A DNA stretch of 64,000 nucleotides from Xestospongia bergquistia (taxonomy: Eukaryota > Porifera > Demospongiae > Haplosclerida > Petrosiidae), in contig OZ014422.1 in assembly GCA_963965975.1 (NCBI GenBank), positions 5,665,155 to 5,729,154 of the forward strand, in the 5' to 3' direction. The notes beneath the pieces are model-generated. The model was not told where the DNA came from, did not search any database, and was given only the letters and a program-made list of their open reading frames with translations. The position numbers and the translations under genes were made by a program. Of this stretch, positions 17,908 to 44,824 are shown one piece after another; positions within the stretch are counted from its first letter, which is position 1; each line of letters starts with the position of its first letter.

Positions 17908-18738
17908 CTACTGAGGGGGATAGGGTGCAGGAGGATAAGTACCAGGTGGTTGTGGTGGATAACCTCCAGGAGGATATGCTCCAGGATACTGTGTAGGATA
18001 GTCAGCAAGGTTTTCTTGTGAATATCTTATGGCAGGATAACCTTGCAGAGGATATCCACTGGCAGGATAAGCAACTGGAGGCTGAGAATTTGGAGGAGGT
18101 GCATCAACAGTCATTTTAGTTTCAGTAGAAGTAATAACAGCAGCAGTTGTGGTAGTGGCAGGTGTACCTTTTACAACAGTAGTCCGAGGTGTGCGGCTAC
18201 CTTCACGACAAGCAGCACCAATTCCTACACCCAAACAACAGCATATACACAGAGGAATGGCAATGATAAGAACACAGATAAAGATGATGAAACCAATTAC
18301 TCCTCCCACAATAACAGCTATGTTAGTGGTACCTAATATAAATGAAATAGAATCATGTACAATGTTTTTGATATCTAAAAGTAATATAATTATAACTACT
18401 TGCTATGTTATGTAAATGGTCTTATTAAGGGACACCTAAAAGGTATAAACTATATTATATATATAGTGGTTACCAAGTCTCTTTGTATAAATTATATATG
18501 TACTATTACAGAATACAATATCACAATTATTACATTACAGATACTATAAACTTACTTGTACTTGGAGAATCTATATTTTTTTTATGTAGAAGAGATAAGA
18601 AAAAACATACAAGTAACTGGATATGAATTATCTCCTAGTTGATTACAGGCAGTGTTTACTATGTCTATGCACATATATTTATACCACAAAATAACATCAT
18701 AGCTCTTACATCTATAAACATATATGTACTTGGAGTAG

Positions 18739-22862: not shown

Positions 22863-25800
22863 CTACTGAGGGGGATAAGGGGCAGAAGGATAAACACCAG
22901 GTGGTTGTGGTGGATACCCTCCAGGAGGATATGCTCCAGGATAGTGTGTAGGATAGTCAGCAAGGTTTTCTTGTGAATATCTTATGGCAGGATAACCTTG
23001 TAGAGGATATCCACTGGCAGGATAAGGAAATGGAGGCTGAGAATATGGAGGAGGTGCATCAACAGTCATTTTAGTTTCAGTAGAAGTAATAACAGCAGCA
23101 GTGGTGGTAGTGGCAGGTGTACCTTTTACAACAGTAGTCCGAGGTGTACGGCTACCTTCACGACAAGCAGCACCAATTCCTACACCCAAACAACAGCATA
23201 TACACAGAGGAATGGCAATGATAAGAACACAGATAAAGATGATGAAACCAATTACTCCTCCCACAATAGTAACTAGGTTAGTGTTACCTAATAGAAATGA
23301 ATAAATAGAATCATGTACAGTGTTTTTGATATCTAACAGTAATATAATTATCTGCTATGTAATGTATCTTATTATGGGGCACCTCCTAGCTAACTATATA
23401 TATGTATAGTGACTACCAGGTCTCTTAATATAATCATACATGTGCTATTACAGAATGCAATATCATAATTATTACATTACAAATACTATAAACTTACTTG
23501 TACTTGGTGTAGCTATATTGTATAAGAAGAGATAAGAAAAAAAACAAATAAATTGAGATAAAACATCTCCTACTTTTGTTTACTATGCCTATGCACATAT
23601 ATTAATACCAGAAGATAATATCATAATTATTACATCTATAAACTTACATGTACTTGGAGTAGCTATATTATATATAAAAGAAAAGAGACAACAATAAAAT
23701 CAAGTAACTGGAAAGTAACACATTTCAGTTGTTCATTTTGTCCATGCACACATGTTAATATCACAAAATAATATCATAACTATAAACTTACATGTACTTG
23801 GAGTAGCTATATTAAATATAAGAGAAAAGAGACAACAATAACATCAAGTAACTAGATAGTAATATATTCCAGTTATTCACTTTGTCCATGCACACATGTT
23901 AATATCTCAAAATAATATCATAATTATTACATCTATAAACTTACATGTACTTGGAGTAGCTATATTAATATAAGAGAAAAGAGACAACAATAAAATCAAG
24001 TAACGAGATAGTAATATATTCCAGTTATTCATTTTGTCCATGCACACATGTTAATATCACAAGATAGTATCATAATTATTACATCTATAAACTTACATGT
24101 ACTTGGAGTAACTATATTATATATAAGAGAAAAGAGAAAAATAAAGTATAATAATTGTACTCCATTATAATTCCAGTGATGATTTATAAACGTTATGTGC
24201 ATCATCTTACTTTGTTTAAAACAGGTTCAATTTTTTTTATTTATATTATATATATCTCTAACTTACTTGTTCTATTACAAGTACTAAATGTAGTATATGG
24301 ACCACTAGTACGAGAGAGGGAGAATTCTATGGACAAGAGACAAATATAACATGACTATATTATTGGTCCATTTTACTTACCACACTCCAAAGAGACATCC
24401 TCACTATGATCACAGTTATGATATTGAGATGATGGACAACTCTCACAATTAGCAAGACAACTAGTAAATAAACTGGTACATCTAACGTTGTCCAACCAAA
24501 TTGGTTGTGAACTGGATCCATAACTAAAATTACATAACAATGGAAACACTCAAATTATGTTAAAAATTAACATACTATTTAAACACAGTAGTCTAGTAAC
24601 ATTATCATAAATTCGTAAACTTACTAAAGTGAAGTGTACTCATAACGAGAATAGTCTGAATATCCCAGTTGACGACAGGCAACATTAGCCTCAGTTGAAC
24701 CAAAACTATCATCACACACTGTTCCCCACTGTCCATTACAATAGACCTCAAGACGACCACGATTGGAGTAGTCTCCACCCACAATACGAAGTTGTCCTGT
24801 ATAAGGATTGCTATTCCAGATCTTAGTGGTATCTAATGACATAAGTATTTGCACAACAATATAGTATATGGTATGTACTTACAGCAAACAACAAAAGCAT
24901 CACGATCATGATCATTACAATAAAAGGAGTAGCGAGACCTGTAACTACACTGTAATAGAACCAGGTAATTACTGGATGAACAGTCAACATCTTCTAGTAA
25001 CATGGAATTAGTATCATTTCCATAACTATATAACAAATGAAACATTTCTTACGTCAATTTAATGTCTTTAACATTTATACACATTATTTGCAATGATAAA
25101 ACTTTGAAGAGTTTAAAGTAGAGATCAATTGATAACTTGATAAATTGGTAATTTACTTGTTTGTTATAATGTTGATATTGTTATATATATTCATTACCAT
25201 TAATGTGTTTACAATAATGTTTTATATTATGTTTTATTTGTTAGCACACTCCTATGATATCTGATATGTCTTGTCTATAACTTAAAGGATTCAAGCCTTT
25301 ACTGAATAACTTTCAATATGACAAATTAGAATGTTTGTTTATCAGTAATTTGTATTCTGTACATTAGCATGAACAACAACATGATCTGATCTATGATCCA
25401 ATATTTATAAGAATGGATGCTCAGAAAGGAAATTAGAGTTAAAGCTTTATATTAATTGATGATGTCTGTTACTAGGTCTACACAGAAATTGACACAATAA
25501 AAAAATATTTACATAAACATCATTATGATCTTTGCCTCAAACTATATTGACTTAATTTACAAGTTCTCATCTCTCTCTCTCTCTCTCTCTCTCCTAATAC
25601 AAATGCAGAATAATTAATTTTATTAGTAATGAATCTTACAGTGTTGTACTTCCAGAATTGCCATAAGTAGAAACACCAGTAAAGGCTAGTTGATGACATA
25701 TCACATTAGCTTCATTGTAACTAAAATAAGTATCATCACAGATGTTACCCCAAGTACTACCATAATAGATTTCCACTATACCAGAGGTATAGGCTTGGAT

Positions 25801-26044
25801 TGTGGAATAAAGATTGTTCCTCACTAGACGAAGTGCTCCAACACCTAAGTACAAAAATATCACTGTAGACTGGTTGTTATTTTATGTACCATTAGCTACA
25901 ATGTATCTACAATCACTTCACAATATTTCTAATGACAACCATTAAAATAATCAAAGTGTTTATATCATAATAATTCTGCTTACCTTGTCCATTAACATTT
26001 GTAATCAGACCAAGAATACTAACTAAGATTACTATGAGACCCAT
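22863..26044 (-). CDS. SRCR receptor 5: five micro-exons in the stalk, PPPY tail
   Basis: Exons 25984-26044, 25640-25844, 24883-25025, 24625-24832, 24381-24523, 24267-24326, five 15-base micro-exons (24097-24111, 23945-23959, 23792-23806, 23648-23662, 23498-23512) and 22863-23287. With all micro-exons the sum is 1320 bases, open, 439 residues. Leader [17 protein letters not shown] 1 with six Cys, SRCR 2 with GQWGTVCDD. Each micro-exon has AG and GT borders, enters and leaves in phase 1, and adds five residues (mostly STPST), so any number may be included without a frame change. The helix [20 protein letters not shown] and the tail are almost those of receptor 4, but with intact [10 protein letters not shown]. 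Probably a surface receptor with a variable, O-glycosylatable stalk. Confidence 0.87.
23490..24120 (-). repeat. Tandem array of 150-base units, each with a micro-exon
   Basis: Five units spaced 150, 144, 153 and 152 bases apart. Each holds AAACTTACATGTACTTGGAG (donor plus most of a 15-base exon on the minus strand), the ATATAG acceptor, and an intron with a GTCCATGCACACATGTTAATA block. The three middle micro-exons are identical; the outermost two differ by one or two bases. Confidence 0.9.
25565..25593. repeat. (CT)n tract in intron 2 of receptor 5
   Basis: About 12 CT units. The flanking sequence recurs with CT tracts at 39718-39742 and 40153-40175. Confidence 0.85.
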
Positions 26045-26309: not shown

Positions 26310-27960
26310 AACTGAAGAAGGGTTGAACTATGACTACACTGTAAGTAGAACCAGATAGCTACTGGATGAACAGTCAACATCTTCTAGTAACATGGGGAGT
26401 TAGTGTCTGTTCCATAGCTATAAAAATAAATTGCCTGAAGCTCTACGCAAATCGCAAATTCCAAAATTATCATACACTCTAAGTACATACCATCAATGTC
26501 TTTGTTCATCTTGTGTATATATGAACTAACAATAGCAGATATATATGAAAGTTATAAACAGATATAAAACTTGTTCCATATAGTTAATAAATAAATAAAG
26601 ATCTCAAATTACAAATTTTGTCATATGTTGTATGTAAAACTGAAGCGACAACAAAGCATTACTAGACATATTAGAAATGAAAGCAAACACATTTTATGTA
26701 CATTTATACAGACATTTAAGGTACATAATTTATACTGTATGTATTAATAGTGTAAATATGTGACAATTGTATTCTTCTATAAAGAGCAAATACTGATACT
26801 TGGCATAATGTTTAGTAAAGTCACTTAAAAATATGGCTCGTGTTGATATTTTGTGATAAAAATTTTGGCAGTTGCTATGAAATGCACAAAATCCATGAAA
26901 TTTATGCACCTTAACACTAGACTATGTTATTCTATTTAAGGCTCCACTATTAAAACTTACAACATAATTAAATAACAAGTAAAACAAAACAAGATTACCT
27001 TACAGTAATGTACTTCCAGCATAACCATAACAAAACAAAATTACCTTACAGTAATGCACTTCCAGCATAACCATAACAAAACAAAATTACCTTACAGTAA
27101 TGCACTTCCAGCATAACCATAACAAAACAAAATTACCTTACAGTAATGTACTTCCAGCATAACCATAACAAAACAAAATTACCTTACAGTGATGCACTTC
27201 CAGCATAACCATAACAAAACAAAATTACCTTACAGTAATGCACTTCCAGCATAACCATAACAAAACAAAATTACCTTACAGTAATGCACTTCCAGCATAA
27301 CCATAACAAAACAAAATTACCTTACAGTAATGTACTTCCAGCATAACCATAACAAAACAAAATTACCTTACAGTAATGTACTTCCAGCATAACCATAACA
27401 AAACAAAATTACCTTACAGTAATGTACTTCTAGCATAACCATAACAAAACAAAATTACCTTACAGTAATGTACTTCCAGCATAACCATAACAAAACAAAA
27501 TTACCTTACAGTAATGTACTTCTAGCATAACCATAACAAAACAAAATTACCTTACAGTAATGTACTTCTAGCATAACCATAACAAAACAAAATTACCTTA
27601 CAGTAATGTACTTCCAGCATAACTATAACTTGAGACACCAGTAAAAGTCAAGTAATGACATATCATGTAGCTTCATTTGTAGCTGAAAAGAAGAGTTATC
27701 ACATACATTACCTCATTGATCACCATAGTAGATGTCCACTATATCAGAAGTGTAGACTTGGGTTGTGGAGTAATACTTGTTTCTCATTAGACAGTGTTCC
27801 AACACATGACAAAATGTATTAGTTATATACATGTATTATACTATTGTTATACTATTATACATTTACTTGGACAGAATTAACATCTTAAAACAATCAATAA
27901 CCATGTCCATTGAAATTAAAGCAAGCGAACCTGCCAAGATCATAGTAGGATTATTGTCAA
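26310..27960 (-). pseudogene. Degenerate SRCR receptor copy with amplified exon end
   Basis: Recognisable pieces on the minus strand are the second half of SRCR 1 (26318-26424, with an insertion after the TGTAG of the LLQC region), the first half of SRCR 1 (about 27625-27800, with frameshifts at the [10 protein letters not shown] and LRL positions), and a weak leader (about 27905-27943, MILAGSLALIS) with no intact NGQ-G donor. No SRCR 2, helix or tail follows. The end of the first SRCR exon has been multiplied into the minisatellite at 26995-27625. Confidence 0.75.
26995..27625. repeat. 46-base minisatellite, about 13 copies, built on a splice donor
   Basis: Unit AACAAAATTACCTTACAGTA continuing through TGYACTTCCAGCATAACCAT, period 46. 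On the minus strand each unit contains the last eight codons of an SRCR 1 exon (GYAGSTLL) followed by a GTAAGG donor and about 20 intron bases. Copies differ only at C/T positions such as TGCACT/TGTACT and TTCCAG/TTCTAG. Seen directly. Confidence 0.95.
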
Positions 27961-42142: not shown

Positions 42143-44824
42143 ATGAGTGTGGCTTATGGTATATCTATAGCTGTAATCCTTACTTTGATTACAACAACCA
42201 ATGGACAAGGTATGTGATTCTACTAATTTGTAGTTAGATAGATACCTACTATCAAGATTTCATTGCTCATGCATGCTTGTGAGTATTAAATACATTCAAG
42301 AAAATCTATATAATCAACATTTAATTTATACAATGATCTGTATCCAATTCTTTGGTTTGTGTAGGTGATGGAGCACTTCAGCTTGTGATTTATGATAGCA
42401 ATTCCAAAATACAAACCTATAGTTCTGGTATAGTAGAAATCTACTATTTAAGGACCTGGGGTAACATCTGTTATGATGGCTCTTTTGGTTACAATGAAGC
42501 TAACGTGATATGTCATCAACTGGCCTTTACTGGTGTCTCAAGCTATGGAAGTGCATCAATGTAAGATACATTTAGTTACTTATCGTGAACATGAGAATAT
42601 GTCATATATTTTATACAGTTATGGAACAGACACTAATCCTGTGCTACTAGAAGCTGTTGACTGTTCATCCAGTAGTTACCTGGTTCTACTACAGTGTAGA
42701 TATAGCACTGTAATCTCTTCTTATTGTAATGATAATGATCATGATGTCTTTGTTGTTTGCTGTAAGTAAAAATGACTTAGTATGTAATAATACATCAATT
42801 TAGATACCACTAAGATCTGGAATAACCCCTATTCAGGGCAGATTCGTCTTATGGGAGGGAGTTACATCAATCAAGGTCGTCTTGAGGTTTATTGTAATGG
42901 ACAGTGGGGAACAGTGTGTAATAACAGTTTTAGTGGAACAGATGCTAACGTTGCCTGTCGTCAACTGGGGTACACAGATTACTCTTATATTTCTACATGG
43001 TAAGCTAATTTCTTGTCATAATCTAAACATGCATAACATATTTTTAAAATGATTGTGATTGTGAGCGTTTTTTAGTGGTGGACCCAGTTCCCAACCTATT
43101 TGGTTGGACAATGTTCAATGTACTAGTTCATCCAGTATTTGTCTTTCTGATTGTGAAAGTTGTCCATCAACTGAGTATTCTAACTGTGATCATAGTGAAG
43201 ATGTTTCTTTGGAGTGTCGTATGTAACTCAATAAATGATTTGGTTAATTACTTTTTTTCTCATTTGTTCACTAGAGTTTTCCTATTCTAGTGGTGATGGT
43301 CCATATACTACACTTGATACTTGTGATTCTGGTAAATTTGTATTGAATGACTTTAGTGCATGACTGGTAATTCTAAAAAACATTTTCGTTACTGATAGCC
43401 AGAGTTTTTACATTGGACAAATAGTTAGTGGTTATTAGTTACAAGTTTATTGATGACTTAGTTCATGAATATTAAGTTTACAATAGATAAAATATTACTG
43501 TGATAAATTTATCAAGCACTTTTTATTATAAGTGCTTGATAAATTTTATTATTTAATATTCTAAGCACAAACATTATCAAACACCATATACCCAAATGCA
43601 TTTGATCATCAAACAGCACACGCATGAATATCCAAACAGCTTGATAAGTCCATACTTTGTTGTGTTAGCAATATATTATATAGTATGGATTAGACACAAA
43701 TTAGGACTTCATGCATAACAAAAAGCAATGTTTTATAGTTTACTCCTGAAGTAAACCAAGAGTAGTCTTTGAAGTGTATATATTAATTACTATAACAAAT
43801 GTAAAAACTGTTTTATGATCAAATGCATTTGGAATCATTGGTACATGGTGTTTGATAATGTTATATTAATTACTATAACAAATCATTTATTAAGTAAACC
43901 AAGAGTAGTCCTTGAAGTGTATATATTAATTACTATAACAAATCATTTATTTTCATAGGTATCCCAATTGGTGTTATTGTAGGGATTGTGGTTGTTGCAA
44001 TTTGTATTTGTATTGTTGTTGTTATTCTCATCATTGTGTGTATATGTTGCTGCGTTAGTGTGGGGGTTGGTGTTGTTGCTGAAACTACTCCTAGATCTTA
44101 TGTTGTAGCTGGAGGTACACTCTCTACTAGTTATTATCCTGCATATGGACAAGGCTCACCCCCTTCATATTCTCAAATCATCACTGCTTATCCTGCCAGT
44201 AGATATTCTCCTAAACAGCCTGGTAGTTATCATCCTCAACAGCCTAGTACTTTTCCCCCTCAACAGTCAGCCAAACCTCCTGGAGCTGAGCAGCCTGCGG
44301 GTCCACAACAGTATGGAACTAATCCTCAGCAGCCTGGAGTTTCTTCTTCTCAACAGCCTGCAGCCTATCCTCCTCAACACTCAGCCAAACCTCCTGGAGC
44401 TGAGCAGCCTGGTTCACAACAGTATGGAACTAATCCTCAGCAGCCTGGAGTTTCTTCTTCTCAACAGCCTGCAGCCTATCCTCCTCAACAGTCAGCCAAA
44501 CCTCCTGGAGCTGAGCAGCCTGCGGGTTATCCTCAACAGCATGGAGTTTCTTCTTCTCAACAGCCTGCATCCTATCCTCCTCAACACTCAGCCAAACCTC
44601 CTGGAGCTGGTTCACAACAGTATGGAACTAATCCTCAGCAGCCTGGAGTTTCTTCTTCTCAACAGCCTGCAGCTTATCCTCCTCAACAGTCAGCCAAACC
44701 TAGGCCTCCTGGAGATGCACAGCCTAGTCTACAACAGTATGGAACTAATACTCAGCATCCTGGAGCTCAGTACCCTACAATACCTGAAGTCAAACAATCT
44801 GATGATGCAGATTCCCCTGTCTAA
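42143..44824 (+). CDS. SRCR receptor 10 on the plus strand, long repeat-rich tail
   Basis: Exons 42143-42209, 42365-42560, 42619-42761, 42804-42999, 43076-43218, 43275-43331 and 43959-44824 sum to 1668 bases, one open frame, 555 residues. The leader is MSVAYGISIAVILTL. SRCR 1 and 2 keep the family motifs but are three and four codons shorter than the usual exons, and [17 protein letters not shown] has Asn in place of the usual CDD acidic pair. The helix is IGVIVGIVVVAICICIVVVILIIVCICCCVS. The tail of about 250 residues starts with GSPPSYSQ and holds four to five repeats of about 40 residues (PPQQSAKPPGAEQP, QQYGTNPQQPGVSSSQQPAAY). It is the only receptor in this orientation, which suggests an inversion. 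The last intron carries an inverted-repeat element. Confidence 0.88.
43504..43549. repeat. Short hairpin in the last intron of receptor 10
   Basis: AAATTTATCAAGCACTT and its exact complement AAGTGCTTGATAAATTT surround an eight-base loop. Confidence 0.85.
43569..43862. mobile_element. MITE-like element with about 45-base inverted ends
   Basis: The left end AACATTATCAAACACCAT with AAATGCATTTGATCAT is complemented at the right end (ATGATCAAATGCATTT, ATGGTGTTTGATAATGTT). It has no coding capacity. Directly after it, a block with TAAACCAAGAGTAGTC and TTAATTACTATAACAAAT is repeated, up to the acceptor of the last exon. Confidence 0.75.
44262..44720 (+). repeat. Coding tandem repeat in the tail of receptor 10
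   Basis: Four to five copies of roughly 80-125 bases containing CCTCCTGGAGCTGAGCAGCC and TATGGAACTAATCCTCAGCA. Unit lengths differ by multiples of three, so the frame is kept. Confidence 0.9.

Follow-up and report, generated by a model that had tools for sequence, protein, structure and literature searches.

The system nearest to the locus described here in exon size, symmetry and S/T/P content is that of the schistosome micro-exon genes (MEG). According to the accessible parts of two papers, most MEG exons are 15 bp long (PMC10526429), the micro-exons are mostly symmetrical, the frame is kept when symmetrical ones are skipped, and several MEG proteins have T/S/P-rich disordered regions that are predicted to be O-glycosylated (PMC10526429, PMC4671649). 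The organisation differs, however. As described in the same partial texts, the central coding part of a MEG consists mostly of micro-exons, with introns of up to ~5 kb, whereas the sponge gene repeats one near-unchanged unit among conventional exons, and its array introns measure 129–210 bases. Shared ancestry of the two is not claimed. Tandemly repeated schistosome exons are reportedly the subject of an earlier paper.

The nearest example in logic is human IGHG3. In the available portion of the source, the hinge exon is found in 2 to 5 copies among alleles, and the length of the hinge, 32 to 77 amino acids, follows the exon number (PMC8674132). Both cases involve the duplication of an in-frame spacer exon, with spacer length going by copy number. 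However, as far as the same portion goes, IGHG3 is a vertebrate antibody gene that changes in steps of 15 residues and varies between alleles, whereas the sponge exon varies in number between sister genes. Another protein of variable length is DMBT1, an SRCR protein in which repeat number and splicing change whole SRCR domains; it is not known to vary by five-residue stalk steps. In sponges themselves, expanded clusters of tandem SRCR genes have been described, with related exon structures and a varying number of SRCR domains (PMC10855680). The present locus also consists of tandem SRCR genes; stalk micro-exons are unmentioned in the accessible part of that description.

Within the open-licence literature searched, and as far as the available parts of its papers go, no receptor stalk was met in which one 15-nt exon recurs near-unchanged as many as twelve times. 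Judged by title and the start of the abstract, the microexon and Amphimedon papers named no sponge micro-exons, and by title, those on sponge SRCR splicing and the listed ones on tandem exon duplication named no stalk micro-exon arrays. Among the matches listed, microexon papers mentioning sponge and intron dealt, by title, mainly with circRNA and splicing. A sequence-only reading of the locus had called arrays so short rare. That statement has to be limited, since 15 bp is the size of most schistosome MEG exons in the part of the source at hand (PMC10526429).

The window gene and its five 15-base units

The window is the whole stretch of 64,000 bases that was analysed (C12:5665155-5729154), and the genome searched comprises 146,460,797 bases in 21 contigs. 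A gene model was assembled on the minus strand from splice sites and the open frame. It has 12 exons and an uninterrupted frame of 439 residues, into which the two exons that the sequence-only reading had placed on either side of the array (24326-24267 and 23287-22863) fit. In window positions, the features are:

25984..26044, minus strand, exon 1, start codon and hydrophobic leader, 61 nt (open frame, donor GTAAGC)
25640..25844, minus strand, exon 2, 5' part of the first SRCR domain (gene model; Pfam SRCR)
24883..25025, minus strand, exon 3, 3' part of the first SRCR domain (gene model)
24625..24832, minus strand, exon 4, 5' part of the second SRCR domain (gene model; Pfam SRCR)
24381..24523, minus strand, exon 5, 3' part of the second SRCR domain (gene model; Pfam SRCR)
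24267..24326, minus strand, exon 6, constant stalk exon, 60 nt, phase 1-1 (gene model; paralogues)
24097..24111, minus strand, candidate micro-exon m1, I-T-P-S-T, ends in T (ATATAG / GTAAGT)
23945..23959, minus strand, candidate micro-exon m2, S-T-P-S-T after m1, ends in T (ATATAG / GTAAGT)
23792..23806, minus strand, candidate micro-exon m3, S-T-P-S-T, ends in T (ATATAG / GTAAGT)
23648..23662, minus strand, candidate micro-exon m4, S-T-P-S-T, ends in T (ATATAG / GTAAGT)
23498..23512, minus strand, candidate micro-exon m5, S-T-P-S-T, ends in A, acceptor weakest of the five (ATATAG / GTAAGT)
22863..23287, minus strand, last exon, membrane helix, cysteine patch, PPPY, proline-rich tail and stop (gene model)

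The predicted protein runs from a leader through two SRCR stretches, a short constant stalk and the array to a hydrophobic helix and a tail. Both SRCR stretches were found with Pfam PF00530 (136 bits against a cut-off of 26.1); the hydrophobic start and the single long hydrophobic stretch were recognised in the translation by eye only. The helix is accompanied by a cysteine patch; the tail contains PPPY and YP-rich repeats, and its PPPY motif presumably points to WW-domain partners. The membrane/tail exon (22863-23287) resembles the CYYR1 or Shisa-like transmembrane adaptors weakly and falls short of membership, as Pfam CYYR1 reached 16.2 bits, below the cut-off of 31 (E 0.015). This exon has 29 matching stretches genome-wide, counting itself and fragments. 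The introns of the array region measure 155, 137, 138, 129, 135 and 210 bases and the remaining ones 139, 614, 50, 101 and 54 bases; the micro-exons make up 75 of the 1320 nt of coding sequence, stop included. Two further repeats were observed in the window. A 46-base minisatellite (14 copies at 98%, 26983-27629) lies ~0.9 kb upstream of exon 1, and a plus-strand open frame at 44210-44701 has a similar membrane stretch and a proline/glutamine-rich tail enlarged by coding repeats of 96-111 bases.

The array that had been proposed at 23490-24120, with five complete micro-exons of 15 bases each coding for one S/I-T-P-S-T step, is borne out in its structure. It lies between stalk exon 6, which follows the second SRCR domain, and the membrane exon. 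Each of the five units has an ATATAG acceptor, a GTAAGT donor and phase 1 on both sides, with start-to-start spacings of 152, 153, 144 and 150 bases; at 15 nt and phase 1-1, all five candidates are symmetrical micro-exons in the sense of exons <36 bp. With all units included the array reads ITPST and then four times STPST, so that S, T or P account for 24 of the 25 residues of an extracellular spacer adjoining the membrane. From this composition, the stalk would be mucin-like and O-glycosylated.

We regard the units as very probably real exons. The explanation that we consider probable is that they make a mucin-like stalk, that its length depends mainly on how many copies the germline carries, and that most units are included by default. 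The claim that any subset keeps the frame was confirmed in the gene model, as all 32 subsets of the five units read open without a stop. As evidence this is weak by itself, since stops seldom occur in short stretches coding for S, T and P. The open subsets, together with junction codons that are sense in all ten combinations possible among intact units and their neighbours, also suit a reading that is compatible with the germline one and that we hold tentatively, as somewhat less than probable. Here, as the sequence-only reading had proposed, the units would be cassette exons, and by skipping some of them each gene would produce stalks that differ in steps of 15 bases. The near-identical acceptors, spaced by 144-153 bases, might then compete for one upstream donor. 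Of the 33 micro-exons newly described in schistosomes, 26 are symmetrical; the available part of the report takes this as favouring alternative splicing (PMC4671649). Yet frame-neutral units are equally required for germline duplication to survive, and inclusion of all units with a germline-set length fits equally well, with the IgG3 hinge exons as a precedent.

The strength of the splice sites bears on the same question. Sites were scored with an intron-only, deduplicated table whose 82 distinct acceptors come from conventional paralogous exons; it is small, built from relatives and no predictor of inclusion. Against these 82, the acceptors of m1 to m4 stand at the 20th, 33rd, 65th and 29th percentiles, that of m5 scores below all of them, as do those of the final units in the four remaining arrays of the cluster, and most inner-unit acceptors of the large arrays lie at about the 6th percentile. 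The m5 acceptor reaches the 66th percentile of random AGs. The GTAAGT donors, on the other hand, score equal to the best local hexamer. This table replaced a first one that contained exon bases and duplicate paralogues, under which the acceptors of m1-m4 fell at the 6th-15th percentile of genuine sites, their donors at the 21st and the m5 donor at the 14th. Strong donors and weak acceptors, the last unit weakest, are what cassette exons might have, but the acceptor scores come from the paralogue-based table; weak acceptors are compatible with skipping or equally with poor use. At the thresholds of the window array, acceptor-donor pairs 15 nt apart number 17 on the minus strand of C12 versus 1 on the plus strand. 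The one other high minus-strand count (16 pairs at 23 nt) lies at least partly inside copies of exons 3 and 5. Retrocopies with joined units or with the junction of last unit and membrane exon gave no genome match to either of two patterns, which weighs neither way.

A bolder form of the splicing idea seems rather unlikely to us. Competing micro-exons would act as a ruler that gives many stalk lengths in a single cell, and the choice of the last unit would set a cysteine switch. Since m1-m4 end in T and m5 in A, skipping m5 while any earlier unit is kept changes the junction codon from AGT (Ser) to TGT (Cys), and the cysteine form could possibly be locked by a disulphide beside the membrane. 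If this were true, the length of an innate immune-type receptor and its covalent pairing would be adjusted jointly, and the array in the germline would serve as a setting that evolves fast.

Sister arrays and changes in unit number

Five units in the window had been described, together with a second gene, receptor 4, said to have one live and one donor-dead copy. The account of receptor 4 was accurate, and the extent of the system was understated, as three more arrays, with 12, 7 and 3 units, are present on the left side of the window. These came from a minus-strand scan, allowing substitutions only, of 144 kb of C12 (the window, 70 kb to its left and 10 kb to its right). The further features are:

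C12:5650423-5648673, minus strand, 12-unit array, ~14.7-16.5 kb left of the first base of the window
C12:5644456-5643508, minus strand, 7-unit array, ~20.7-21.7 kb left of the first base of the window
C12:5639024-5638684, minus strand, 3-unit array, ~26.1-26.5 kb left of the first base of the window
18724..18738 (window), minus strand, receptor 4 unit 1, core unchanged, donor lost (ATATGT) (unit scan)
18556..18570 (window), minus strand, receptor 4 unit 2, intact candidate micro-exon, N-S-P-S-T in frame (unit scan, gene model)
17908..18332 (window), minus strand, receptor 4 membrane and tail exon (paralogue match, gene model)

With 5 units in the window gene and 2 in receptor 4, the cluster holds five arrays and 29 units. 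A unit was counted as intact if precisely 15 bases separate its AG acceptor from its GT donor and the donor hexamer can be recognised; this applies to 24 units (5, 1, 10, 5 and 3 in the arrays of 5, 2, 12, 7 and 3), of which 21 have the donor GTAAGT, the commonest local hexamer, two GTGAGT and one GTAGGT. An indel-tolerant profile search returned the same 29 units in the region plus one match at chance level (E 6). In the whole genome, a 31-base unit pattern with up to three mismatches gave 27 matches, all in the cluster, and none in the control; the two units whose donor is displaced (5650122 and 5644155) escape this pattern. The bare motif ATATAG-N9..24-GTAAGT is not rare (1202 matches in the genome against 1571 in the reversed control). 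With fewer matches than the control, and with places taken from the first matches listed, it is uninformative for further arrays. The restriction to the cluster thus applies to this unit pattern, and unrelated micro-exon arrays may exist elsewhere in the genome.

Five units are damaged: unit 1 of receptor 4 and units 2 and 3 (u2, u3) of both large arrays. In u2 of the 12- and 7-unit arrays the acceptor reads AA and the donor GTAAAT. In u3 (C12:5650122 and 5644155) GTAGAT replaces the usual donor and GTAAGA follows six bases on, which makes a 21-nt exon possible; it would be in frame and add Cys-Arg. The gene model of receptor 4 with its single intact unit is open from ATG to stop. That of the 12-unit gene is open from exon 3 onward through ten intact units into the long last exon, and likewise with the 21-nt form of u3; its exons 1-2 were not among the blastn matches listed up to 5652500. 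The 7-unit gene is open from exon 4 onward through five intact units if the exon 6 donor is GTAATT. The 3-unit array and its membrane exon are open on the assumption of phase 1 after an A. Upstream of this array, an exon-6-like stretch has GC at the place of the donor and is followed by an apparent insertion, and a second membrane exon, truncated and ending in another, short tail (C12:5639459-5639262), separates the SRCR exons from the array. The gene may have been rearranged; it may be a fusion or have alternative last exons.

The comparison of units, made over 155 bases, suggests how their number changes. Units u5-u10 of the 12-unit array are 92–100% identical to one another. The u3, u4, u5 and u6 of the 7-unit array are 100% identical to u3, u4, u5 and u11 of the 12-unit array, respectively; the two u2 share 99%, the two u1 93% and the two last units 95%. 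Near-identity of this kind is predicted by recent duplication of units. These identities make the two arrays sisters that are about five inner units apart. As the surrounding genes differ more than the arrays, exchange between genes is likely; their last exons measure 770 and 500 nt, with different tails. The 12-unit gene (C12:5648450) has a long, repeat-rich cytoplasmic tail, and so both its stalk and its tail are long. Across all 29 units, identity falls to 39% and the spacing ranges from 142 to 183 bases, and the 15-nt core is without indel in every one. Such a pattern would result if whole units were exchanged unequally and then diverged. The number of an in-frame spacer exon thus differs between gene copies, in five sister arrays of one assembly, and some units are damaged; the gain and loss that had been read from receptor 4 are seen across the cluster.

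Constraint on the units and short stalk exons on contig C3

Ten of the 24 intact units were aligned pairwise in both orders. In these 90 alignments no gap opens inside the exon, 4 open in the 29-base core and 379 at the 96 other sites. Among nine representative units, with gaps scored as differences, identity is 96% in the acceptor (6 bases), 97% in the donor (8 bases), 86% in the exon and 45–62% in the flanking intron. Each of the six top-scoring 29-base windows overlaps the exon; the highest value is 0.918, and no window outside the exon exceeds 0.782. The exact acceptor-exon-donor window ranks 6 of 187, and 9 of 187 when the four intact units that have diverged most are compared. The length of the exon and its splice sites therefore look kept. 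The residues appear to be only loosely kept, varying in the models among S, T, P, N and I. Pairwise mismatches amount to 10% in the core, 16% in the exon and 19% in the aligned flank columns, where free gap placement flatters the flank, and the commonest 15-nt core is retained in all five damaged units. For these two reasons the conservation of the core is no proof of selection on residues; neither an excess of synonymous changes nor a third-position bias was seen by eye inside the exon.

The same two observations suit an intronic minisatellite whose splice sites are fossils or decoys and which is normally removed whole with the intron. Its units would expand in minisatellite fashion, as these do, and several of their acceptors score no higher than random AGs. 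We nevertheless think this reading unlikely: exon length and splice sites are constant while the introns vary in length and sequence, and a decoy has no need of phase 1 and 15 nt. Less probable still is that the core is kept for a non-coding reason at the level of DNA or RNA, e.g., as an enhancer or a recombination-prone motif spread by conversion. Conservation does extend beyond the donor (GTAAGTTTATAG), and the intact core of damaged units would be expected; but the conserved block begins at the acceptor.

Paralogues on another contig, C3, bear on both of these alternatives. Seven membrane exons there match that of the window gene, and three of the seven genes carry, ~0.6-1.0 kb upstream of this exon, 18 nt flanked by ATATAG and GTAAGT. 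The candidates are:

C3, 10170137, 10189942 and 10180756, first 18-nt candidate micro-exon (ATATAG / GTAAGT)
C3, 10169382, 10189402 and 10180396, second 18-nt candidate micro-exon (GTATGT donors, 266-267 bases upstream of the membrane exon)

With phase 1 after an A, taken by analogy with C12, the first candidate reads TIPTTT in two genes. Its identity across the three genes is 93%, compared with 73% and 56% for the two flanks, and a 30-base pattern of it has three genome matches, which are those three genes (none in the control). The contrast is weaker for the second candidate (78% among four genes, flanks 67% and 62%); in the fourth gene it is present with GC replacing GT. The profile of the C12 units recovers two of the three first candidates with weak scores (E 0.005 and 0.035). 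In one gene, at C3 ~10181208, another 18-nt stretch that may be a stalk exon, with TTACAG before and GTATGC after, lies upstream of the other two. Single exons with similar splice sites in the same interval of paralogous genes speak against a minisatellite, and a version three bases longer, a difference that keeps the frame, against a non-coding core. Our reading is that short stalk exons may be an older trait of the receptor family, of which one was multiplied in the C12 cluster.

A proposed course of stalk growth and its meaning

The preferred explanation, germline copying of real micro-exons, would work as follows. Tandem duplication of a unit of ~150 bases would give the micro-exon array, and each unit would insert one five-residue S/T/P step into the stalk that separates the second SRCR domain from the membrane helix. 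Whole units would be gained or lost as near-identical ones undergo unequal exchange, and damage to splice sites would retire single ones. The frame would survive every gain, loss or skip, since intact units are 15 nt long with phase 1 on either side, and none of their junction codons is a stop. In favour of this explanation we count the open models, the indel-free cores, the identity of the splice sites, the C3 candidates and the near-identity of units; against it, the exon mismatches near those of the flank, the core kept in damaged units and the mostly weak acceptors.

Stalk length would presumably matter for the reach of the receptor. From the SRCR family and the accessible part of the literature on SRCR expansion (PMC10855680), a role in the recognition of microbes may be supposed. 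If the units are spliced, the reach of the receptor would evolve in five-residue steps through the copying of an exon, not through its lengthening. The five sister arrays, with one to ten intact units, would then form a natural series for relating stalk length to function, and also for studying how tiny repeated exons are recognised where several equivalent acceptors compete.
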